Below are positions 3,050 through 46,166 of a stretch of 49,871 nucleotides of DNA, piece after piece. Source of the DNA: Desulfobacteraceae bacterium (GTDB lineage Bacteria; Desulfobacterota; Desulfobacteria; Desulfobacterales; Desulfosalsimonadaceae); assembly GCA_011390465.1 (NCBI GenBank), contig JAABSH010000027.1, forward strand, positions 1-49,871, read 5' to 3'. The position numbers were made by a program, and so were the translations under genes. How positions within the stretch are numbered: position 1 is the first letter of the stretch; every line of letters starts with the position of its first letter. The notes under the pieces are model-generated. The model did no database searches. It was given only the letters and a program-made list of their open reading frames with translations, and was not told the origin of the DNA.

Positions 3050-3613
3050 ATGATGAAATCTGTTAAAATTTTTTCAATTTTGATCTGTCTTGCCCTGTCC
3101 TGGCCCGCCGCTGGTCAGGCCATTGATGTACAGCTGAGCGGCATCCGGGTGACGGAAAACCCCACGCACCTGCTGCTTTCCCTGCAGGTTGAAGGGGCGT
3201 TTAATGAAAAAATGGAAGAAGCCGTGTTAAACGGCATTCCCACCACCTTTTCCTTTCTCATCAACATCGCCCGAAAGCGTACTCTGTGGACAAACGACCC
3301 CGTGGTCACCGTGAACGTAACCCATACGATAAAATATCATAACCTGAAAAATCATTATATTATCAAACGATCCGGGGACAGCGACAATCCTTTTGTTACC
3401 GACTCCTTTGATGAAGCCAAAGAAATCATGTCCCGGATCGAGAACATGCCGGTTGTCCCCTTGCGAAAACTCAAAAAAGACCATCGGTATATCATCAGCG
3501 CCAAGGCGGAACTTGATAAGGTGCGGCTGCCGTTTCTGCTGAATTATATCTTCTTTTTCGCGTCTCTGTGGGATTTTGAAACCGAATGGCACACCTATGA
3601 ATTTGTCTATTAA
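3050..3613 (+). CDS. DUF4390 family exported protein
   Basis: A 187-residue protein of the DUF4390 family, function unknown. It begins with a signal sequence (MMKSVKIFSILICLALSW, cleavage likely after PAAGQA) and continues as a beta-rich domain of short amphipathic strands (VQLSGIRVTEN, TFSFLINIARKR), so it is expected in the periplasm or at the membrane. ATGATG at 3050/3053 follows AAGGCTGAA; an in-frame upstream start at 3011 would add 13 residues before the signal peptide. Its 3' end overlaps the start of the NtrY-like kinase by about 17 bp, indicating translational coupling. In deltaproteobacteria this family is regularly found directly before an NtrY-type kinase, so an accessory or ligand-sensing role for that kinase is a reasonable inference but unproven. 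Confidence 0.85.
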   Translation: MMKSVKIFSILICLALSWPAAGQAIDVQLSGIRVTENPTHLLLSLQVEGAFNEKMEEAVLNGIPTTFSFLINIARKRTLWTNDPVVTVNVTHTIKYHNLKNHYIIKRSGDSDNPFVTDSFDEAKEIMSRIENMPVVPLRKLKKDHRYIISAKAELDKVRLPFLLNYIFFFASLWDFETEWHTYEFVY

Positions 3614-5891
3614 CCCCTTTTTCCGCAAACTGTCCGGATTTCTGAAGGCACCGTCCCGGCGCAACCGTTATAAATTGTCCGACGCCCCCAGCAATGCGGA
3701 AAACCGCTGGCGCCGCAAGCGCGATTTCATCATTATCGCTTTTGTCATCGCCGTGGTCACCCTGCTCTCTTTTATCACGGTAAACAAACTCCATTCCGGC
3801 AGCGATATCCCGGCATCCAACATGGTGCTGATGTTTATTCTCATCAACATCAACATGCTGCTGGTGGTGCTGCTGATTTTTCTCGTGTTCCGGAACCTGG
3901 TCAAGCTGATTTATGAACGCCGGAAAAAAGCCGAAGGCAGCCGGCTCCGGACCAAGCTGGTGGCGGCCTTTATCGCCCTCACCCTCCTGCCGTCCACGGT
4001 GCTGTTCTTTTTCTCCCTTCATTTCATCACCTCCAGCATTGAATTCTGGTTTAAAATCCCCATTGACCAGTCTCTGGACAACTCCCTGGCTGTGGGCCGG
4101 AATCTTTACAAGCTGGTAGAGGAAAACAACAGTTTTTTCCTGGACAAAGCCGCCTATCAGATTGACAGCCGGAACCTGCTGGTGCCCGCCAATAAAAGCG
4201 ACCTGTCCAATTACACCCAGGTGGTACAGCGGGCATTCAACCTGAATGTGGTGGAAGTCTACAATGACGATTTCGAGCGGCTCACCATTTCCGCGGACCC
4301 CAAACTGGGAGATAAAAAATTCCGGCCGGTAAAAAAAGAGGCGTTTCAAACCGGCATCCGCCGACAGACGGAAATCTGGTCCGTGTCTGAAAACCTGGAC
4401 GGCGGCGAATTTATCCGCAATATCTCCACCATCCCCTTTGGCGCTGTTGAAGCCGAAATAAAAGGCTTTGTGGTGATCAGCGTGCTGCTGCCGCCGGATC
4501 TCGTCGGCAACCTGGCGTCCATTTCCACGGGTGTGGAAGAATATCATCAGATGAAAATGCTGAAACAGCCGGTGCAGTTTACCTATTATATTGTGCTGAC
4601 CATTGTGGCACTGCTGGTGGTGTTCTGCGCGGTATGGTTCGGCATTTACCTTTCCAGAAGCATTACCGTGCCCATTATGGAGCTGGCCGAAGCGACCCGC
4701 CGGGTGGCCGGCGGCGATCTGAGTTACAATATCAACGTGGTGGCCAATGATGAAATCAAAACCCTGGTGAATTCCTTTAACAAAATGACCCGGGATCTGC
4801 GCTTCAGCCGAAAAGAGCTGGAACTTTCCGCCCGGGAACTGTTTGATAAAAACATCGAAATCGATGCCAGACGGCGGTACATGGAAATCGTGCTGAACAA
4901 TGTCTCCACCGGCGTAATTTCTCTGGATGCCCGGGGCCTTGTGGCCACCATCAACCGGTCCGCGGAAAGAATGCTGGCCATTGACGCAAGTGCCATCATC
5001 AAAAAAAGCTACAAACACATTCTGAAAACCCAGCACAGCGACCTGTCCGATGAAATTTACAACCGGTTCTGGAACCGGCATGAGGAAAATTTTTCCCGGT
5101 CCATCAAAATGACGGTGGCCGGCATTCCCAAAAGTTTTAATGTCAATTTCAACTCCCTGAAAGACGAAACCGGCCGACAGATCGGCCTGGTAATGGTGTT
5201 CGATGACATGACCGAGCTGGAAAAAGCCCAGCGCATGGCGGCCTGGCGGGAGGTGGCCAGAAGAATCGCCCATGAGGTCAAAAATCCCCTGACCCCCATT
5301 TCCCTGTCCGCCCAGCGGCTGAAGCGAAAGTACAAAAAAACCATTAAAGACCCTGTGTTTGAAGAATGCACCCAGACCATTATCGACCACACCGAACTGA
5401 TTAAAAACCTGATCAATGAATTTGCCACCTTTGCGCGCTTTCCCGCGGCCAACCCGGCACCGTGCCAGCTCTCGCCGATTGTTCACGAAACCATTGCCCT
5501 TTACAAAGAAGGCCATCCGAATATCCGGTTCAGCACGGACATCCCGGAAGATCTCCCGATGATGCAGCTCGACCGGCAGCAGATCAAGCAGATCCTGATC
5601 AACCTCATTGACAATGCCATCAGCGCCATCCGGACCACCGGCGATATCACGATAACAGTTGCCTGGGCGGCCGGTGATAAAACCCTCACCCTGAGTGTGG
5701 CGGATACGGGATCAGGGGTACCGGACCTTGTCAAGCCGTCCCTGTTTGAACCGGATTTCACCACCAAAAAATCCGGCATGGGGCTGGGGCTGGCCATTGT
5801 GAGCACCATTGTGTCGGATCACAACGGCAAAATCCATGTGGAGGATAATGTGCCGATGGGGGCACGTTTTGTGATTGAGCTGCCGGTGTAA
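3597..5891 (+). CDS. ntrY: NtrY-like membrane sensor histidine kinase
   Basis: A 764-residue sensor kinase of the NtrY type. Three N-terminal transmembrane helices (about 44-63, 76-98, 122-144), an extracytoplasmic sensor region, a fourth helix (about 328-353), HAMP (354-404, TVPIMELAEATRRVAGGDL), PAS (about 430-540), HisKA with the phosphoacceptor His559 in ARRIAHEVKNPLTP, and HATPase_c with NLIDNAISAI, ADTGSGVP and GMGLGLAIV. All catalytic boxes are intact. ATG 3597 is preferred over an upstream TTG at 3576. It overlaps the DUF4390 gene. Its expected cognate NtrX-type regulator is not adjacent but lies 3.5 kb downstream at 9400, beyond an AT-rich insertion. Nitrogen sensing is inferred from the family name only; in this lineage the signal is not established. 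Confidence 0.9.
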   Translation: MNLSINPFFRKLSGFLKAPSRRNRYKLSDAPSNAENRWRRKRDFIIIAFVIAVVTLLSFITVNKLHSGSDIPASNMVLMFILININMLLVVLLIFLVFRNLVKLIYERRKKAEGSRLRTKLVAAFIALTLLPSTVLFFFSLHFITSSIEFWFKIPIDQSLDNSLAVGRNLYKLVEENNSFFLDKAAYQIDSRNLLVPANKSDLSNYTQVVQRAFNLNVVEVYNDDFERLTISADPKLGDKKFRPVKKEAFQTGIRRQTEIWSVSENLDGGEFIRNISTIPFGAVEAEIKGFVVISVLLPPDLVGNLASISTGVEEYHQMKMLKQPVQFTYYIVLTIVALLVVFCAVWFGIYLSRSITVPIMELAEATRRVAGGDLSYNINVVANDEIKTLVNSFNKMTRDLRFSRKELELSARELFDKNIEIDARRRYMEIVLNNVSTGVISLDARGLVATINRSAERMLAIDASAIIKKSYKHILKTQHSDLSDEIYNRFWNRHEENFSRSIKMTVAGIPKSFNVNFNSLKDETGRQIGLVMVFDDMTELEKAQRMAAWREVARRIAHEVKNPLTPISLSAQRLKRKYKKTIKDPVFEECTQTIIDHTELIKNLINEFATFARFPAANPAPCQLSPIVHETIALYKEGHPNIRFSTDIPEDLPMMQLDRQQIKQILINLIDNAISAIRTTGDITITVAWAAGDKTLTLSVADTGSGVPDLVKPSLFEPDFTTKKSGMGLGLAIVSTIVSDHNGKIHVEDNVPMGARFVIELPV

Positions 5892-5898
5892 GGGCGAG

Positions 5899-6003
5899 GT
5901 AGAAGGTAGAAGGTAGAAGGTAGAAGGTAGAAGGGGTAAGGCTGAAGGCTGAAGGAAAAGATGAACGTCCAACATCGAACATTGAACATCGAATTTTGAA
6001 TGT
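5899..6003. repeat. Heptad repeat array 1 (left edge of insertion)
   Basis: Two runs of 7-bp units begin 8 bp after the kinase stop. Run A (5899-5954): five GTAGAAG, then GGGTAAG, then two GCTGAAG. Run B (about 5969-6003): CCAACAT, CGAACAT, TGAACAT, CGAATTT, TGAATGT. The units share period 7 but not composition. The same two unit families recur elsewhere: GCTGAAG-type at 8310, 9295 and 46117, CGAACAT-type (as ATGTTCG) at 31652. The array contains no long reading frame of its own and sits exactly where the GC-rich kinase gene gives way to AT-rich DNA. Confidence 0.9.
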
Positions 6004-6121
6004 AACTGATTTTTCGGTTCTTGAAGAATAATGAAATATTATTGAAGGTTCCCAAATCCATCAAGTAGTGATATACTTTAATATTTACAATTTTTTTCTC
6101 AGAAAAGAGGCTCTGTGCAAA

Positions 6122-6712
6122 ATGGGGATTGAATTACTCTCTGATTTTATCAGACAAAATTACGAGATACATGAATGGAAACATGCCTGTGCTATTTTGA
6201 AAGAAGATTTTTCCCATGAATGGCATGATATTATTTCCGTGCTGGAATCCTTTCGTCTTAAAAAAAGCTGGATTGTTACTCCCGGAGGCAGGAAATCAAA
6301 GATTTCGGGCTATATTGACGGCTTTCTTTATGATAGAGGTTGGGTGGAAAAAGAATTTGAAACAAAAGTAACAGTTGATGACCATACCATGGATACACCA
6401 ACCCATAAAATTGACTGCTTTAAAAACAGAGTGGCCCTGGAAATTGAATGGAATAACAAAGACCCTTTCTATGACCGCGATTTAAACAATTTTAGACTGT
6501 TATTTGATCTTCGCGCAATCAGCGTTGGTGTAATCATCACCCGCTGTGATGATCTTCAAAATATTTTCAATGATTTAGGCCGAGGGACGTCCTATGGAGC
6601 TTCCACAACGCATATGAGCAAATTGTTGCCAAGAATTGAAGGCGGCAGTGGCGCCGGGTGCCCTATTGTGGCCTTTGGAATTTCAAAATCACTTTATGTG
6701 GAGAACATATAA
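6122..6712 (+). CDS. BglII/BstYI-like type II restriction endonuclease
   Basis: A 196-residue protein I recognise as a member of the BglII/BstYI restriction endonuclease family (cutters of AGATCT or RGATCY). The core HKIDCFKNRVALEIEWNN followed by DPFYDRDLNNFR and ISVGVIITR matches that family; Asp98 and Glu107-x-Glu109 are candidate metal-binding residues of the modified PD-(D/E)xK site. I start at ATG 6122 (AGAGG 15 bp upstream) where the conserved N-terminus MGIELLSDFIRQ begins; an earlier in-frame start at 6068 would add 18 residues of Phe/Asn-rich sequence. The stop is one base before the next ATG, so nuclease and MT-A70 methylase are coupled. The DNA is visibly richer in A+T than flanking genes, consistent with recent transfer. 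Target specificity cannot be read from sequence alone. Confidence 0.8.
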   Translation: MGIELLSDFIRQNYEIHEWKHACAILKEDFSHEWHDIISVLESFRLKKSWIVTPGGRKSKISGYIDGFLYDRGWVEKEFETKVTVDDHTMDTPTHKIDCFKNRVALEIEWNNKDPFYDRDLNNFRLLFDLRAISVGVIITRCDDLQNIFNDLGRGTSYGASTTHMSKLLPRIEGGSGAGCPIVAFGISKSLYVENI

Positions 6713-6713
6713 T

Positions 6714-7361
6714 ATGAATGCTTCGGATGACTTATTGCATTTTATCGGAAACAAAAAATTTTCAACCATACTGGCAGATCCACCATGGCAGTTTCAAAAC
6801 CGAACAGGCAAAATGGCCCCGGAGCATAAACGCCTGACCCGTTATCCAACATTAAAATTACAACAGATAAAAGATTTACCTATTGAAGCGATTGCTGAAG
6901 ACAGGGCGCATCTTTACCTTTGGGTGCCAAATGCACTTTTGGCGGAAGGGATGCAAGTAATGGCTTGTTGGGGGTTTGAATATAAAACCAACCTCATTTG
7001 GTATAAAATCAGAAAAGACGGTGGGCCTGACAGAAGAGGCGTTGGTTTTTACTTTAGGAACGTGACGGAAATGATTCTGTTTGGCGTTCGAGGGAAAAAC
7101 ATCAGAACCCTGCAACCGGGAAGAAGTCAGGAAAATATTATTTTGTCCCGGAAAAGAGAGCATAGCAGGAAACCGGATGAACAATATGACATCATTGAAT
7201 CCTGCAGTTGGGGGCCTTTTTTGGAACTTTTTGGAAGGGGCAAGAGAAACGGCTGGGTCACCTGGGGAAATCAATCTGAAGAATACATACCTGATTGGTC
7301 TACCTATTCCAATCACTCGCAAAAAGAAAATGTCATCTCGTTAGGCAAGTCAAGAGTGTAA
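6714..7361 (+). CDS. MT-A70 family adenine methyltransferase
   Basis: A 215-residue MT-A70 family methyltransferase. The catalytic DPPW (22-25) follows FSTILA, and AHLYLWVPNALL, YKTNLIWYK and GWVTWGN are characteristic blocks. Bacterial members methylate adenine N6 in DNA, usually as partners of type II nucleases (M.MunI-like). ATG 6714 lies two bases after the nuclease stop with GTGGAG upstream; a reading-frame extension back to 6636 overlaps the nuclease and is unlikely. As part of a nuclease-methylase-methylase cluster, its probable task is to protect the host sites of the BglII-like enzyme or to take the role DpnM plays in DpnII systems; this is inference. Low G+C like its neighbours. Confidence 0.85.
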   Translation: MNASDDLLHFIGNKKFSTILADPPWQFQNRTGKMAPEHKRLTRYPTLKLQQIKDLPIEAIAEDRAHLYLWVPNALLAEGMQVMACWGFEYKTNLIWYKIRKDGGPDRRGVGFYFRNVTEMILFGVRGKNIRTLQPGRSQENIILSRKREHSRKPDEQYDIIESCSWGPFLELFGRGKRNGWVTWGNQSEEYIPDWSTYSNHSQKENVISLGKSRV

Positions 7362-7428
7362 CCACCCTTGACGTCCGGATTCCCCAAATTTTTTTCCTTT
7401 TCAAACTGTTTCAAGGAAATGATTTTTC

Positions 7429-8301
7429 ATGGGCTATTACCTTGAAAGCGATTTGGATATTTTTAATTTTGATCATCAATCTGAAATTGCTGAGACAAAC
7501 CTTCAACCTTTTTACCATGATTCAGTAAATAGAATCAAATTATACAACATAGACGTATTTTCATTTTTTCATAAAATACCAGATAATTGCGTTGATTTGG
7601 TCTTTGCCGATCCCCCCTATTTTCTATCGTCCGGAGGAATCACATGCCGTAGTGGAGAAAAGGCCTGTGTAAATAAAGGCAGTTGGGACAAGTTGCGCCC
7701 AATCCAGTCTGTTCATTATTTTAACAAAAAATGGCTATCAGAAATTAAACGAATTCTGAAACCGAATGGAACAACGTGGGTATGCGGAACTTTTCATAAT
7801 ATATTTTCAGTTGGTTATGCATTACAAGAGTTGAATTTTAAAATACTGAACAATATTGTTTGGGAAAAACAGGATCCACCTCCCAATCTGACCAAAAAAT
7901 ATTTCACACACGCATCTGAGCATTTACTATGGGCGGCAAAGACAAAAAAGGCCAAACATACTTTCAATTATCAAGAACTTAGAGATATTTCGGATGAAAA
8001 GCTCATAAAATCCGTGTGGAAAGATCTTTGGACATTACCTTCAGTAACAAAGTCTGAAAAAATATTTGGAAAACATCCCACCCAAAAACCAGAAAAAATA
8101 GTAAAAAGAGTTATCCTTGCCTCCAGCAATATAGGTGATTTGATATTTGATCCCTTTTGCGGCAGCGGCACAACCGGGGTTGTGTGCAAAAAATTAGGCA
8201 GAAAATTTGTTGGTATTGATAATGAAATTAAATATCTAAATATAGCGAAACAAAGATTGATCGCAACAGGAAATAACAAAAATACCCGCTTTTTTCCTTG
8301 A
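7429..8301 (+). CDS. DpnA/MboIB-like beta-class DNA methyltransferase
   Basis: A 290-residue site-specific DNA methyltransferase with beta-class motif order: catalytic motif IV DPPY at 61-64 comes before the SAM-binding motif I FDPFCGSGTTG at about 240-250. The segment ADPPYFLSSGG, then VNKGSWDK, resembles the second methylase of GATC systems (DpnA, M2.MboI type), which modifies adenine and in DpnII can act on single-stranded DNA. AAGGAA precedes ATG 7429. A GATC-type methylase next to a nuclease family whose known members recognise sites with a GATC core is mutually consistent. There are 67 bp between it and the MT-A70 gene. Codon use is AT-rich. The exact methylated base is inferred. Confidence 0.85.
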   Translation: MGYYLESDLDIFNFDHQSEIAETNLQPFYHDSVNRIKLYNIDVFSFFHKIPDNCVDLVFADPPYFLSSGGITCRSGEKACVNKGSWDKLRPIQSVHYFNKKWLSEIKRILKPNGTTWVCGTFHNIFSVGYALQELNFKILNNIVWEKQDPPPNLTKKYFTHASEHLLWAAKTKKAKHTFNYQELRDISDEKLIKSVWKDLWTLPSVTKSEKIFGKHPTQKPEKIVKRVILASSNIGDLIFDPFCGSGTTGVVCKKLGRKFVGIDNEIKYLNIAKQRLIATGNNKNTRFFP

Positions 8302-8309
8302 AATCCAGC

Positions 8310-8337
8310 CTTCAGCCGTTGGTCTTCAGTCTTATAT
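8310..8337. repeat. Heptad repeat array 2 (between R-M and toxin-antitoxin modules)
   Basis: Four consecutive 7-bp units directly after the methylase stop: CTTCAGC, CGTTGGT, CTTCAGT, CTTATAT. CTTCAGC is the reverse complement of the GCTGAAG unit in the left array, so this copy is in the opposite orientation. It separates the AT-rich restriction-modification genes from the GC-richer HepT/MntA pair. Confidence 0.75.
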
Positions 8338-8412
8338 ATTTCAAAATATGACTGGGTTTTATCGTCCTCTGCGGGTACCATCTATGGAAACATTATGCGG
8401 AGACCTTCAACA

Positions 8413-8832
8413 ATGGCAAAAGACATCCGATGGGTGCAGCGTTACCGGCATTTTATCCAGGCGTTTGAACAGCTGAAAAGCGCGGTGGAGCTTGCCGAGC
8501 AGCGCAATCTGAGTGAGTTGGAAGAACAGGGAATGATTCAGGCGTTTGAATACACCCATGAACTGGCCTGGAACACTCTGAAGGATTTTCTTGAACATCA
8601 GGGACTGCAACATTTATATGGCTCAAAAGACAGTTCCCGCGAAGCATTTAAAAAAGGCCTTGTCCAAAACGGCGACATCTGGATGGACATGATCAAAAGC
8701 CGGAATCTGAGTTCTCATACCTACAACCGGGACATTGCCAGAAAAATTGTCAGCGCGATCCAGAATAATTATTGTCTGGAATTTGAAAAACTCATCACCA
8801 CTCTGGAATCCCTTGCAAAAAAGGAAAGCTGA
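8413..8832 (+). CDS. hepT: HepT-like HEPN-domain toxin (HI0074 family)
   Basis: A 139-residue all-helical HEPN protein of the HI0074/HepT group. The ribonuclease signature RX4HXY is complete: Arg97-Asn-Leu-Ser-Ser-His102-Thr-Tyr104. In studied HepT/MntA pairs this toxin is an RNase that is silenced when the partner adds AMP units to the tyrosine of this motif. GGAG stands 10 bp before ATG 8413; an upstream ATG at 8395 has no ribosome site. It overlaps the next gene by one base (TGATG), a typical toxin-antitoxin coupling. The pair's base composition is nearer to the host than that of the methylase genes, suggesting separate acquisition. Confidence 0.88.
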   Translation: MAKDIRWVQRYRHFIQAFEQLKSAVELAEQRNLSELEEQGMIQAFEYTHELAWNTLKDFLEHQGLQHLYGSKDSSREAFKKGLVQNGDIWMDMIKSRNLSSHTYNRDIARKIVSAIQNNYCLEFEKLITTLESLAKKES

Positions 8833-9167
8833 TGAAGTTCGGGTTGAAGGACAAGACCATCCAACAAATTCAGTCGGTTCTGGCCCTCTATCCACAGGTG
8901 GAAAAAGCGGTGCTCTATGGCTCCCGGGCAAAGGGGAATTACAAAAACGGCTCAGACATTGATATGACGCTTGAAGGCGGCAAGGATTTGACATTACATA
9001 TCCTCTACCGGATCATGGATAACATTGACGACCTGCTGCTGCCTTACACGTTTGATTTATCCATTTACGGTCATATTAATGATCCGGATGTTCTCGACCA
9101 TATCGAGCGCATCGGCGTCACATTTTATGAAAAAGCAGGAGATGCCCATCATTCTCATAATAAATAA
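8832..9167 (+). CDS. mntA: MntA-like nucleotidyltransferase antitoxin
   Basis: A 111-residue minimal nucleotidyltransferase of the MNT family. The catalytic signature GSX10DXD is exact: Gly-Ser of YGSRAKGNYKNGSDID, ten residues, then Asp-Ile-Asp. By the studied MntA/HepT model it transfers AMP to the HEPN toxin tyrosine and neutralises it. The start codon overlaps the toxin stop (TGATG), and the order toxin then antitoxin is common for this family. A 233-bp gap to the NtrX-like gene follows and contains heptad array 3. The protein is complete in length for the family. Confidence 0.88.
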   Translation: MKFGLKDKTIQQIQSVLALYPQVEKAVLYGSRAKGNYKNGSDIDMTLEGGKDLTLHILYRIMDNIDDLLLPYTFDLSIYGHINDPDVLDHIERIGVTFYEKAGDAHHSHNK

Positions 9168-9294
9168 TAACTGCTGAAGATTATTCCGGTCTGAAAAAAT
9201 TTAGTTAACCGGATGCCACAAACTCCAATGGATATAATGCAAAAAGATAACGGCCACGGCAGCGGACTGAAAACGCCGGCAATTTTTACTTGAC

Positions 9295-9343
9295 CTTCAG
9301 CCTTCAGCCTTAAGTCTTCACCCTTAAACCTGATACCTTAAAC
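9295..9343. repeat. Heptad repeat array 3 (right edge of insertion)
   Basis: Seven 7-bp units: CTTCAGC, CTTCAGC, CTTAAGT, CTTCACC, CTTAAAC, CTGATAC, CTTAAAC. On the other strand the end reads GCTGAAG GCTGAAG, the same pair of units that ends run A of array 1, so arrays 1 and 3 form an inverted pair about 3.3 kb apart bracketing the foreign genes. The array ends about 57 bp before the start of the NtrX-like gene. Confidence 0.88.
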
Positions 9344-9399
9344 CCAACCAACACGGATACAAAATTTGAACCAAAATAACCAACAAGGAGCCATCCCCC

Positions 9400-10764
9400 A
9401 TGTTCCCCTCCATCCTGATTGTGGATGATGAAGCATCCATATTAAAGGCATTGTCCGATATCCTCTCTGACGAGGGATTTGAAACCATTACCGTGTCCAA
9501 CGGGTATGAAGCGTTGAAAATACTGGAATCCGAATCCCCGGATCTCGTGCTGCTGGATATCTGGATGCCCGGCATTGACGGCATTGACACATTAAAGGAA
9601 ATCAAAAAAATTCACCCCACCACGCCGGTGATCATGATTACCGGCCACGGCACCATTGAAACCGCGGTAAACGCCACCAAAATCGGGGCCTTTGATTTTA
9701 TTGAAAAACCCCTGTCCATTGACAAGGTCATTGTGGGCATCAACAACGCCCTGAATTTCCGGCGCCTGGAAGAAGAAAACCGGTTTTTGCGGAAAAAGAC
9801 CATTGAAAAAAATTCCATTACCGGAAATTCCCCGGCCGTTCAGGAACTGCGCAAGCAGATCAGCATTGCCGCGCCCACGGATGCCTGGATTCTTATCACC
9901 GGTGAAAACGGCACGGGCAAAGAGCTGATCGTCCGCATGGTTCATCAGCTCAGCAGCCGGGCCGAATACCCGCTGATTGATGTCAACTGCGCAGCCCTGT
10001 CCGACGACATCATTGAAAGCGAGCTGCTGGGACATGAAAAAGGCGCGTTTACCGAAGCCACTGCCAAAAAACGGGGCAAGCTGGAACTGGCCCATCAGGG
10101 CACGCTGTTTTTTGATGAAATCGGGGATCTGGGCCTGAATACCCAGGCTGCCATCCTGCGCATTCTTCAGGAAAAACAGTTTCAGCGCATCGGCGGCAGC
10201 CGGACCCTGACCGCGGATGTGCGAGTCATTGCCTGCACCAACAAAAACCTGCCCAAAGAAATTGAAGCCGGAAGATTCCGAAAAGATTTGTACTACCGGT
10301 TGAATGTGGTGCCCATTCATGTGCCGGCGCTGCGGGAACGCCTGACAGACATTGCCGCGCTGGTGAGCACATTTTTAAAGGAAATCGGGGAAAAAAATCG
10401 CAGACCCCCCAAAAAAATGTCACCCGAAGCCATGAAAATGCTCGAGCAGTGCACCTGGCCGGGCAATGTCCGGGAACTGAAAAACCTGCTGGAACGCCTG
10501 TCCATCAATGTAGAAAAAGAAACCATTGATGCCGATGACATGCCGGCGCCTTACAATCCGGAAAAACGCACCGCGCCGACTACGGAATCCGCCATTTTTG
10601 GTTCTCTGATGAAGATAGACCGGCTGGATGACGCCCTGAAACAGTTTGAAACCCTTTTTATGGCCCGGAAACTCAGGGAAAATAATGAGGATCTGGCGGA
10701 AACCGCCCGGCGGCTGCATGTGGACAAATCGTATCTTAAAAAAAAATTATCCCAAAAAGCGTAA
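9400..10764 (+). CDS. ntrX: NtrX-like sigma-54-type response regulator with altered GAFTGA loop
   Basis: A 454-residue NtrC-family regulator: receiver domain 1-120 with acidic pocket Asp9-Asp10, phosphoacceptor Asp53 (LLDIWMPGIDG), Thr81 and Lys in FIEKPL; AAA+ domain with Walker A GENGTGKE (168-175), Walker B LFFDEIGDLG and the arginine-finger region; C-terminal Fis-type helix-turn-helix (LAETARRLHVDKSYLKKKL). The sigma-54 contact loop reads GAFTEA (215-220) in place of GAFTGA, so the essential glycine is a glutamate; open-complex formation with sigma-54 is doubtful and it may act as a plain DNA-binding regulator, as proposed for some NtrX proteins. AAGGAG precedes ATG 9400. Partner kinase is presumably the one ending at 5891; rsmD and coaD follow in the usual order. 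Confidence 0.9.
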   Translation: MFPSILIVDDEASILKALSDILSDEGFETITVSNGYEALKILESESPDLVLLDIWMPGIDGIDTLKEIKKIHPTTPVIMITGHGTIETAVNATKIGAFDFIEKPLSIDKVIVGINNALNFRRLEEENRFLRKKTIEKNSITGNSPAVQELRKQISIAAPTDAWILITGENGTGKELIVRMVHQLSSRAEYPLIDVNCAALSDDIIESELLGHEKGAFTEATAKKRGKLELAHQGTLFFDEIGDLGLNTQAAILRILQEKQFQRIGGSRTLTADVRVIACTNKNLPKEIEAGRFRKDLYYRLNVVPIHVPALRERLTDIAALVSTFLKEIGEKNRRPPKKMSPEAMKMLEQCTWPGNVRELKNLLERLSINVEKETIDADDMPAPYNPEKRTAPTTESAIFGSLMKIDRLDDALKQFETLFMARKLRENNEDLAETARRLHVDKSYLKKKLSQKA

Positions 10765-14602: not shown

Positions 14603-15916
14603 CTACTCTACTTCCAGGGCCTGTTTTTCTTTTATTTCCTGCCGGGCCGCTTCGATATAGGCTGCAATATAGGGGTGACAATAATGCCGGGCCGCCACCA
14701 GGGCGGTCCCCATTTTGGTTTCCGCAAATACATCCGCGCCATTTTCCACCAGAATTTTAACCACCTTCATATGGCCCATTTCAGCTGCCAGAAACAGCGC
14801 ATCAATATCCGTGTCATCATCTTTTGCATTCACATCCGCGCCGTGTTCTATAAGAAAGGCAACCACATCCGCATACCCGCCGTGGGCAGCCTGGCTGAGG
14901 GGGGTGGTCCCCTTGGAAAAGGGCACACCACCCAGGGTAAATGTTTCAGTTGTGCGCGCATTCACGTCCGCGCCGTTTTCCACCAGGAACCTGGCAATAT
15001 CGAGATGACCCTGGGCCGCCGCCGCCATCAGGGCGGTGGTACCGTTTTTACTGGCGGCATTCACATCCGCGCCGGCCGCCATCATTGCCTTGACCGTGTC
15101 CATATTGCCGGCGCCGGCGGCAATCATCAGGGTGGTCACGCCTTCAAACACGTCCCGGCCGCTGATGGTCGTGTCTTTTAATGTCCTTGTCTGGTGCCGG
15201 GCACCCCGGGAAAGAAGATAATTGGCCATTTCCCCGTCACCGTTCAGTGAAGCAATCATCAGGGCATCTGTGCCGTCCCCGCACCGGGCATTTACATCTG
15301 CGCGCGCATTCACCAGCAGCACGGCATTTTTGTTCTGCTGCATTCTGAGCGCCGCCATGAGCGGAGTGGCGCCGTTGCAGACCGGCTGGCTTTTGTATTC
15401 ATATTCCTCGGTAACAGCGGCATTTACCGCCGCGCCTTTTTCAATAAGATGGTCGACAACGCCGGCATCATTAAGGGCTGCGGCAATAAAAAGGGGGGTG
15501 GTGCCATTGACATCCGCGGCATTCACATCCGCGCCGTATTGGATCAGCATTTTCGCGATATCTGAATTTCCCCGGCCCAGAGCTGCCATGAGCGGGGTGC
15601 AGCCCTCAAAAATCGTCTGATCTTCATAGGAAAACGTCTTTTTGACAGGGGCGTTTACGTCTGCATTTTTTTCCACAAGCCGCTGCACAATATCTTTGTT
15701 CCCGTTAAAGGCTGCCAGAAACAGCGGCGTCACCCCTTCTTCCGAGGCGGTATCCGGCAGCACCCCCTGTGCCATCAGGCGATTAACTTCATTAATCTGC
15801 CCTTGTTCCGCGGCTTTCAAAAGGGGTGCCTTTTGAAATGTCCGGCAGGCCGGTACCATGACAAAGACCGTCATAAAAAGCAGCAGAATAAATGACCACC
15901 TGGTGTTTTGTTTCAT
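14603..15916 (-). CDS. Ankyrin-repeat lipoprotein with 77-residue super-repeats
   Basis: A 437-residue lipoprotein: signal peptide with lipobox VPAC (Cys24), then eleven ankyrin repeats to about residue 425. Every second repeat is followed by a roughly 15-residue insert (about 90-104, 167-181, 244-258, 321-335) where a normal repeat has a short turn, giving a two-ankyrin unit of exactly 77 residues; equivalent positions fall at 105, 182, 259 and 336 (C/A/V/T-T-P/T-L). AGGAGC precedes ATG 15916. Periplasmic or surface protein-protein binding is the likely role; no partner is indicated by neighbours. Lipid attachment is predicted from the motif only. Confidence 0.88.
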   Translation of the reverse strand: MKQNTRWSFILLLFMTVFVMVPACRTFQKAPLLKAAEQGQINEVNRLMAQGVLPDTASEEGVTPLFLAAFNGNKDIVQRLVEKNADVNAPVKKTFSYEDQTIFEGCTPLMAALGRGNSDIAKMLIQYGADVNAADVNGTTPLFIAAALNDAGVVDHLIEKGAAVNAAVTEEYEYKSQPVCNGATPLMAALRMQQNKNAVLLVNARADVNARCGDGTDALMIASLNGDGEMANYLLSRGARHQTRTLKDTTISGRDVFEGVTTLMIAAGAGNMDTVKAMMAAGADVNAASKNGTTALMAAAAQGHLDIARFLVENGADVNARTTETFTLGGVPFSKGTTPLSQAAHGGYADVVAFLIEHGADVNAKDDDTDIDALFLAAEMGHMKVVKILVENGADVFAETKMGTALVAARHYCHPYIAAYIEAARQEIKEKQALEVE

Positions 15917-45845: not shown

Positions 45846-46121
45846 ATGACAGACCCGACCATTGAAAATCTGGAAAGACGCTGCCCGCGCCTGGGCAGCC
45901 CCATCACTTTTCAGTACTGCCTTATCAGCGGCGAAGATGACACCATCTGCGGAAAAATCCTGGACTGCTGGTGGGAACGCTTTGATGTGGAAAATTATCT
46001 TAAAAACAACATGTCGGCGGCGGAGTTCAATTCTCTCATGGCCCGGGCGGAAAAACCGCCAAATAAAATTTCAAGTATTGTTGAAATTGTGGAAGCGGCG
46101 AAGAAAAGGGTGGAAGACTGA
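45846..46121 (+). CDS. Small conserved four-cysteine protein
   Basis: A 91-residue protein with four cysteines (RRCPRLG, FQYCL, TICGKILDCWW) and a helical C-terminus. I have seen this RCPRLG...YC...C..I.DCWW pattern as a conserved unnamed family in sulfate-reducing deltaproteobacteria; metal or Fe-S binding is likely. GAAGGAACC precedes ATG 45846. It follows trpB2 by 26 bp. The stop codon lies within a heptad repeat array, so the last residues may be repeat-derived. Confidence 0.75.
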   Translation: MTDPTIENLERRCPRLGSPITFQYCLISGEDDTICGKILDCWWERFDVENYLKNNMSAAEFNSLMARAEKPPNKISSIVEIVEAAKKRVED

Positions 46122-46166
46122 AGGTAGAAAGGCTGAAGGCTGAAGACTGAAGGCGGAAGGGTTACG
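46117..46166. repeat. Heptad repeat array 4 (GCTGAAG type)
   Basis: Units ACTGAAG, GTAGAAA, (one extra G), GCTGAAG, GCTGAAG, ACTGAAG, GCGGAAG, GGTTACG. Same unit family as arrays 1-3. It starts at the stop codon of the small Cys protein and runs into a hairpin repeat at 46171. Confidence 0.85.

Follow-up and report, generated by a model that had tools for sequence, protein, structure and literature searches.

The ntrY and ntrX genes of a two-component pair are normally adjacent. A contig of Desulfobacteraceae bacterium (GCA_011390465.1, JAABSH010000027.1), analysed here over 49,871 nucleotides and called the window, raises the question of how five accessory genes came to lie between them, and whether the arrays of 7-bp repeats (heptads) at the edges of the interval had a part in it. 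This contig (C39) belongs to a 3.93-Mb draft genome in 119 contigs, and the relatives of this source genome (G000) are Desulfobacterales, for the most part metagenome-assembled genomes. The original prediction, made from the letters alone, had seen a small defence hotspot in which the heptads acted as landing or recombination sites. We found that the ntrY-ntrX spacer is a real accessory-gene hotspot in this genus. We consider it moderately probable that it is a small, locus-specific accessory-gene slot of the genus, seated where inverted heptads were already present in the spacer, with the arrays being inherited ordinary repeats and not an integration device; the heptads are most likely not the machinery.

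We located the best NtrX match in 59 relatives, fetched the surroundings of 40 of them plus a search locus for G005 (18 were left out), and compared 42 interval sequences; in 36 of them, counting the source genome, ntrY and ntrX share a contig. Within the genus, the intervals with both flanks on one contig measure 3511 (source genome), 1607, 6408, 891, 92, and 69 bp, and the spacer is more variable than its neighbours: the seven other junctions of the same block span -35 to 472 bp within the genus, and one junction reaches 878 bp in G019, of the sister genus. Extra genes stand at ntrY-ntrX in nine of the 11 genus genomes, with largely different cargo: a type I restriction subunit and a nucleotidyltransferase in G002, VapB and PIN in G001, YefM/YoeB and PhzF in G009, an HI1420-type antidote and a REP-transposase-like open reading frame (ORF) under its cut-off in G004 (L064), an enoyl-CoA hydratase in G010, an ORF without a family in G006, and an HI0074 relative with another such ORF in G003. 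Two restriction systems and several toxin-antitoxin-type pairs are included in the cargo of the genus. Where the contig is cut, in five genus genomes, other genes adjoin ntrX (in G005, by eye only, the end of an HI0073-like gene). The small hotspot predicted here is thus borne out by a range of 69 to 6408 bp with differing cargo. The ORF of G004 resembles a REP-associated tyrosine transposase (58 bits, cut-off 80), and a similar remnant was seen by eye in the ntrY-ntrX interval of G019 (L078).

The two basal genomes of the genus, G007 and G008, which form one clade, are without cargo, their intervals being 69 and 92 bp long. Of the 30 intervals fetched from outside the genus, 29 measure 22-229 bp, the exception being G018 (3754 bp), where no heptad array was found within the 450 bp read at each end. 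Among 80 named loci, 72 have ntrY on the contig (8 do not), and 69 of these 72 gaps are at most 334 bp; the three larger ones belong to G003, G004, and Desulfonema magnum (5708 bp, with genes in both orientations). ORF lists read by eye place the cargo in the ntrY-to-ntrX direction in all but one ORF, the exception, presumably TetR-like, lying at the contig edge of G010. The conserved neighbours and the changing small defence-type cargo are shared with the defence hotspots between core genes reported in two earlier studies (PMC10121019, PMC10250203), from which the present locus differs in its very small cargo, its position inside a two-component pair, and the lack of an integrase at the site.

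Both outer edges of the interval carry strong heptad arrays (Table 1). Tandem Repeats Finder reported 5.4 copies of AGGTAGA and 2.6 copies of AAGGCTG at the left edge, both with 100% matches, and 4.6 copies at 9294-9325 with 80% matches at the right edge. The two were expected to be oppositely oriented with identical repeat pairs, and AAGGCTGAAGGCTGAAGG is indeed exact in both, in opposite orientation; an inverted pair (I1) of 56 nt between the outer edges is 77% complementary, its arms standing 3.3 kb apart. A third array had been claimed for the border between the two gene modules, at 8310, and there the claim fell short: the place is unlisted by Tandem Repeats Finder, lies below our period-7 threshold of 12, and contains about four degenerate units by eye. 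Its surroundings (8291-8334) share 35 of 44 bases with 9283-9326, and the runner-up among the places scanned has 32 of 44, a resemblance that is no more than suggestive of a duplication of the right edge. A further array of the same heptad family (GAAGGCT) lies at 46113-46160 of the window, before a gene of the metallo-beta-lactamase fold, and no inserted defence genes were recognised beside it.

The edges are conserved between species. The left flank (heptads, the composite AAAGATGAACGTCCAACATCGAACAT, and neighbouring sequence) is homologous in the source genome, G003, G006, and G010; the composite is common to all four, though the heptads of G003 are degenerate. On the right, the flank (lead-in plus CCTTCAG/CCTTAAA units) is homologous in G000, G003, G005, G006, G009, and the sister-genus G019, and the gene abutting it differs in most of the genomes that share it. 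Because homologous array-bearing flanks meet different abutting genes, the frame is inherited while the cargo changes. A comparison of the interval across relatives had been proposed as the check on a hotspot, and conserved array-bearing flanks in several species with variable cargo between them support one. The alignment places the cargo junction on the right side before the array begins, outside the heptads. The right array is absent in G001, G004, and G010, all of which carry cargo, and G002 retains two units. Cargo-free genomes had been expected to show a single fused array: the empty spacers of G007 and G008 are without heptad arrays, and a fused inverted array, made of other words, is present in L179, of another genus.

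Two candidate mobile elements at the edges were rejected. A search of 21 genomes for the lead-in pattern of the right edge gave matches in G003 and G006 alone, at this locus in both, which is a limited test since the search (three mismatches) missed the diverged copies of the source genome, G005, and G009, and G019 lay outside it. The left composite has 0-8 copies per genome and is present in nine of the 11 genus genomes, and other sequence follows it elsewhere.

The heptads are spread over the whole source genome. AAGGCTGAAGGCTGAAGG matches 74 places at up to two mismatches (reversed control: 0). A 443-kb part of this genome contains 33 period-7 arrays, against 0-2 for periods 5, 8-11, and 13; periods 6, 12, and 15 give 11, 17, and 4. 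A looser threshold yields 42 period-7 arrays and none in three mononucleotide shuffles. Given this excess over periods 5, 8-11, and 13 and over shuffles, the arrays are not noise. Of the 42, 38 lie outside ORF calls, and divergent spacers make up 1 of 28 spacers with arrays vs. 40 of 175 without. The GC content of genes flanking array spacers does not differ (P = 0.47), and arrays show no link to low-GC genes. Passages of the study of Xanthomonas and Nostoc heptads (PMC4692102) describe, for Xanthomonas, repeats that are dispersed, mostly intergenic, and few between divergent genes; given these shared features, the arrays belong to a known kind. The Xanthomonas repeats also form convergent pairs. 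Proximity to the 3' end of the upstream gene and strong length variation are further likenesses to the repeats in those passages, from which ours differ in that their words are not the G-rich GGGAATC and that the inverted pair encloses 3.3 kb of accessory genes, with flanks common to several species. The TAACTGA heptamers of marine Beggiatoaceae likewise form many intergenic sets of 7-bp direct repeats across one genome; they are located immediately before start codons, where a role as signals for translation has been proposed for them (PMC4679880), whereas the arrays of the window genome avoid divergent, promoter-side spacers.

Short CTGAAGG..CCTTCAG pairs number 4 in the source genome (control 0) and also 4 in the heptad-poor G008; as a hallmark of heptad-rich genomes, such convergent pairs were rejected as not specific. 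Pairs of arrays within 6 kb (2 in 443 kb, one of them convergent) are too few for testing. At 4047-4184 of locus L126, an element of about 140 bp ends in inverted heptads of GTCCAACATCGAACATT type, can be folded into one long hairpin, and is perhaps a repeat resembling a miniature inverted-repeat transposable element.

Arrays elsewhere in the genome are accompanied by little gene gain. We traced the neighbours of 10 of the 13 eligible array spacers in 6 of the 10 genus relatives (two of the 10 spacers could not be followed). Eight neighbour pairs were still adjacent in at least two relatives, giving 33 observations (one of them a second G005 copy) with a median of about 186 bp; four exceed 500 bp and one exceeds 1 kb (G008, about 1.9 kb). 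Between two array-bearing spacers of the source genome lies a 404-aa gene that G003 and G006 share and G004 lacks. Period-7 arrays scoring at least 10 are missing from all three of these loci, and likewise from the pair of G008 spacers whose gaps are larger. The presence and absence of the 404-aa gene in array-free loci implies that genes come and go there without arrays, which slightly favours the view of the arrays as ordinary repeats. Unlike the ntrY-ntrX arrays, those at other spacers turn over between species.

Several observations weigh against arrays that are only inherited spacer repeats. They stand at both edges in G000, G003, and G006, and the two empty genus genomes are also the heptad-poorest (matches: 6 in G007 and 2 in G008; reversed control: 1 and 5), as a landing site would predict; G007 and G008 are one clade, and their heptad poverty is hence indistinguishable from descent. 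For gene gain, the matched control was of poor quality, since only 1 of 10 pairs could be traced, perhaps because some control ORFs are not genes. Across the order, moreover, 12 of 48 ntrY-ntrX spacers of named relatives (40-350 bp) have period-7 arrays vs. 11 of 275 co-directional controls (Fisher test: P = 1.2e-5), with 10 vs. 9 and then 7 vs. 6 at stricter thresholds, and the next junctions show 1 of 21 (ntrX-rsmD) and 3 of 33 (rsmD-coaD) vs. 11 of 48 at ntrY-ntrX. This over-representation sets ntrY-ntrX apart from the average spacer. We treat the excess as a lead only, as the choice of test followed a look at the window, the loci share descent, and crude ORF calls underlie the control. If the arrays had a function of their own at this place, for example as a hairpin tuning ntrX expression, cargo would be secondary, and the excess would be explained, as would the arrays of L179 and L189, which fold as strong hairpins (z = -4.2 and -6.7). 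The arms in the window, 3.3 kb apart, fold no better than shuffles (z = 0.8 and 0.2), 36 of the 48 spacers have no array, and inverted heptad pairs are common in other bacteria according to the passages on Xanthomonas-type repeats (PMC4692102); such a function we regard as very unlikely. Cargo-free ntrY-ntrX spacers with arrays in other genera are L155, L179, L180, L187, L189, L192, L197, and L204, and in these the array words are lineage-specific, with several inverted pairs seen by eye. Were the inverted arrays landing or homologous-recombination sites, cargo would be exchanged between genomes by crossing over in them, with no integrase needed, which agrees with arrays that are conserved while the cargo changes, with words common to both edges, with the likeness of the 8291 stretch to the right edge, and with the absence of arrays in the empty, heptad-poor genomes. 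This part of the original prediction is not supported. Spacers throughout the genome have arrays and have rarely gained genes, with 1 of 33 observations above 1 kb; arrays with no gene gain, named beforehand as a refutation, are seen in other genera too; at two other array spacers, genes are present or absent in relatives that have no array there; the right junction is upstream of the array; G001, G004, and G010 have cargo and no right array; and genomes of other genera that are rich in heptads show short intervals (37 bp in G045, with 409 matches; 32 bp in G014, with 86; 26 bp in G024, with 69). We consider exchange by the arrays improbable. That the inverted pair is an integrase-free docking frame, between whose conserved array-bearing flanks small defence cassettes are swapped by homology, making a self-renewing defence slot wired into the two-component pair, seems to us a long shot.

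The origin of the cargo points elsewhere in the order. Matches to the window endonuclease occur in 18 of 395 genomes of the phylum, and the nearest is 90% identical, in G404, of another family of the order, whereas the NtrX proteins of the window and of G058, a congener of G404, share only 63% identity, which implies horizontal transfer. Could an integron integrase acting in trans have put gene cassettes, or their remains, into this non-integron site? The G404 operon stands directly after a stretch homologous to an attC that G058 has near an integron integrase (alignment score 111.5, vs. 35 at most in 200 shuffles), integron integrases over cut-off were found in 28 of 60 genomes searched (5 in this genus), and G404, G319, and G256, three carriers of the closest endonucleases, also have one. 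The small, promoterless-looking, co-directional gene sets fit cassettes, attC-like words were seen by eye in the G002 and G003 intervals, and published work mentions cassettes that insert at attG sites outside integrons. Set against this, the DNA shared with G404 (6122-8258, 77%) is limited to the genes, and no convincing attC was found in this and the other eight cargo intervals by a home-made, insensitive scan, which also missed G404 and left the G002 and G003 words uncalled. An earlier, strict form of the scan gave few hits even next to integron integrases; the later one was usable, with 9 hits in 393 kb of control. The source draft, in 119 contigs, yields no complete integron integrase, its best match being a fragment (positions 165-313, 156 bits, cut-off 265). 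A three-gene, 2.2-kb operon is large for an integron cassette. The likeness to cassettes lies in the attC-like stretch before the nearest relative of the restriction operon, the difference in the window site and genome just described, and we judge a cassette origin unlikely, though a live alternative.

Table 1 Features of the ntrY-ntrX interval and its anchors in the window
Feature	Position	Strand	Evidence
ntrY-like sensor kinase, left anchor	3576-5891	+	HAMP, PAS, HisKA, HATPase_c over cut-off; NtrY_N slightly under cut-off
Left heptad array, AGGTAGA + AAGGCTG units	5897-5955		Tandem Repeats Finder and period-7 scan
Second left heptad run, AACATCG/AACATTG words, starting with composite AAAGATGAACGTCCAACATCGAACAT; further run at 5964-6001	5957-6001		Period-7 scan and flank comparison
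BglII-family restriction endonuclease (putative)	6122-6712	+	PF09195, E = 5.8e-47, 159.9 bits (cut-off 26)
MT-A70-type DNA methyltransferase	6714-7361	+	PF05063 over cut-off, E = 4.8e-33; PADLOC MTase_II
N6/N4 DNA methyltransferase	7429-8301	+	PF01555 over cut-off, E = 2.4e-59; PADLOC MTase_II
Weak heptad stretch between two modules	8291-8334		Resembles right edge; no Tandem Repeats Finder array
HI0074-type nucleotidyltransferase-associated protein	8413-8832	+	PF08780; TIGR01987, 94.5 bits (cut-off 55.8)
HI0073-type minimal nucleotidyltransferase	8832-9167	+	PF18765 and PF01909 over cut-off
Lead-in to right array	9270-9293		Homologous in G003, G005, G006, G009, G019 (alignment)
Right heptad array, CCTTCAG/CCTTAAA units, orientation opposite to left	9294-9344		Tandem Repeats Finder and period-7 scan
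NtrX-like sigma-54 response regulator, right anchor	9400-10764	+	Pfam domains; top NCBIfam match NtrX NF051870, 444.6 bits (cut-off 600)

Gene calls and domain matches confirm the predicted frame, with the kinase ending at 5891, the regulator starting at 9400, and RsmD then CoaD downstream, each over its cut-off. All five interval genes are on the + strand, and the AT-rich restriction-modification genes that had been predicted are there: the GC content of the interval is 0.40, vs. a mean of 0.517 for ORFs called in 443 kb of the same genome. In type II restriction-modification, host DNA is protected by methylation and unmodified DNA is cut. The BglII-family endonuclease adjoins DNA methyltransferases, as in BglII/BstYI-type II systems, and G404 has an identical three-gene order; the window endonuclease differs in being teamed with MT-A70 and N6/N4 methyltransferases, and its restriction activity is predicted. 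A phmmer search of solved structures with it gave no match. The neighbouring pair had been named HepT/MntA. It is a nucleotidyltransferase pair, of HI0074/HI0073 type (the second being a product that we take to be HI0073), and the narrower label did not stand, the pair scoring 22.1 and 26.6 bits with the curated HepT and MntA models, both below cut-offs of 60. None of the five interval proteins matches a transposase or integrase family, in agreement with the prediction that the site has neither. Consensus scans of the interval, which we did not use, gave 13 promoters vs. 8.2 (SD 2.6) in shuffles and 3 terminators vs. 3.4.

Under the reading we prefer, an accessory-gene slot in a spacer with inherited repeats, two heptad arrays in inverted orientation would have stood in the spacer of an ancestor, and accessory genes would have lodged between the two arms, nearly all in the ntrY-to-ntrX direction. 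The source genome would have received the HI0074/HI0073 pair first, parts of it being common to G003, G002, and G005, and the BglII-type restriction-modification operon later, to the left of that pair. We infer that genes entered by illegitimate recombination or by an integrase acting in trans, while the arrays, as inherited copies of common dispersed intergenic heptads, would mark a tolerant spacer. The use of ntrX could be retained since the cargo is co-directional, through read-through or an internal promoter. A Bordetella homologue of NtrX is reported to have a promoter inside the kinase gene, at its 3' end (PMC13001219). If a similar promoter operates here, it would drive transcription of the cargo, with ntrX reached by read-through, and the prevalence of co-directional cargo would be explained.

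The compact accessory-gene slot inside a normally adjacent gene pair of these mostly uncultured Desulfobacterales is a place to seek small defence systems. The locus also advises caution, since heptad arrays, where they abound, may border inserted genes and mimic attachment sites and yet be ordinary spacer repeats. The order-wide heptad excess between ntrY and ntrX is a testable oddity.

Directly upstream of ntrY, a DUF4390 gene occupies 3053-3613 of the window and overlaps the kinase gene by about 35 bp. It may correspond to PlrP, which we take to be a DUF4390 protein. PlrP is a proposed third component of NtrYX systems in a section of the same Bordetella source (PMC13001219). Further downstream, at 14603-15916, the window encodes a 437-aa protein consisting mostly of ankyrin repeats.

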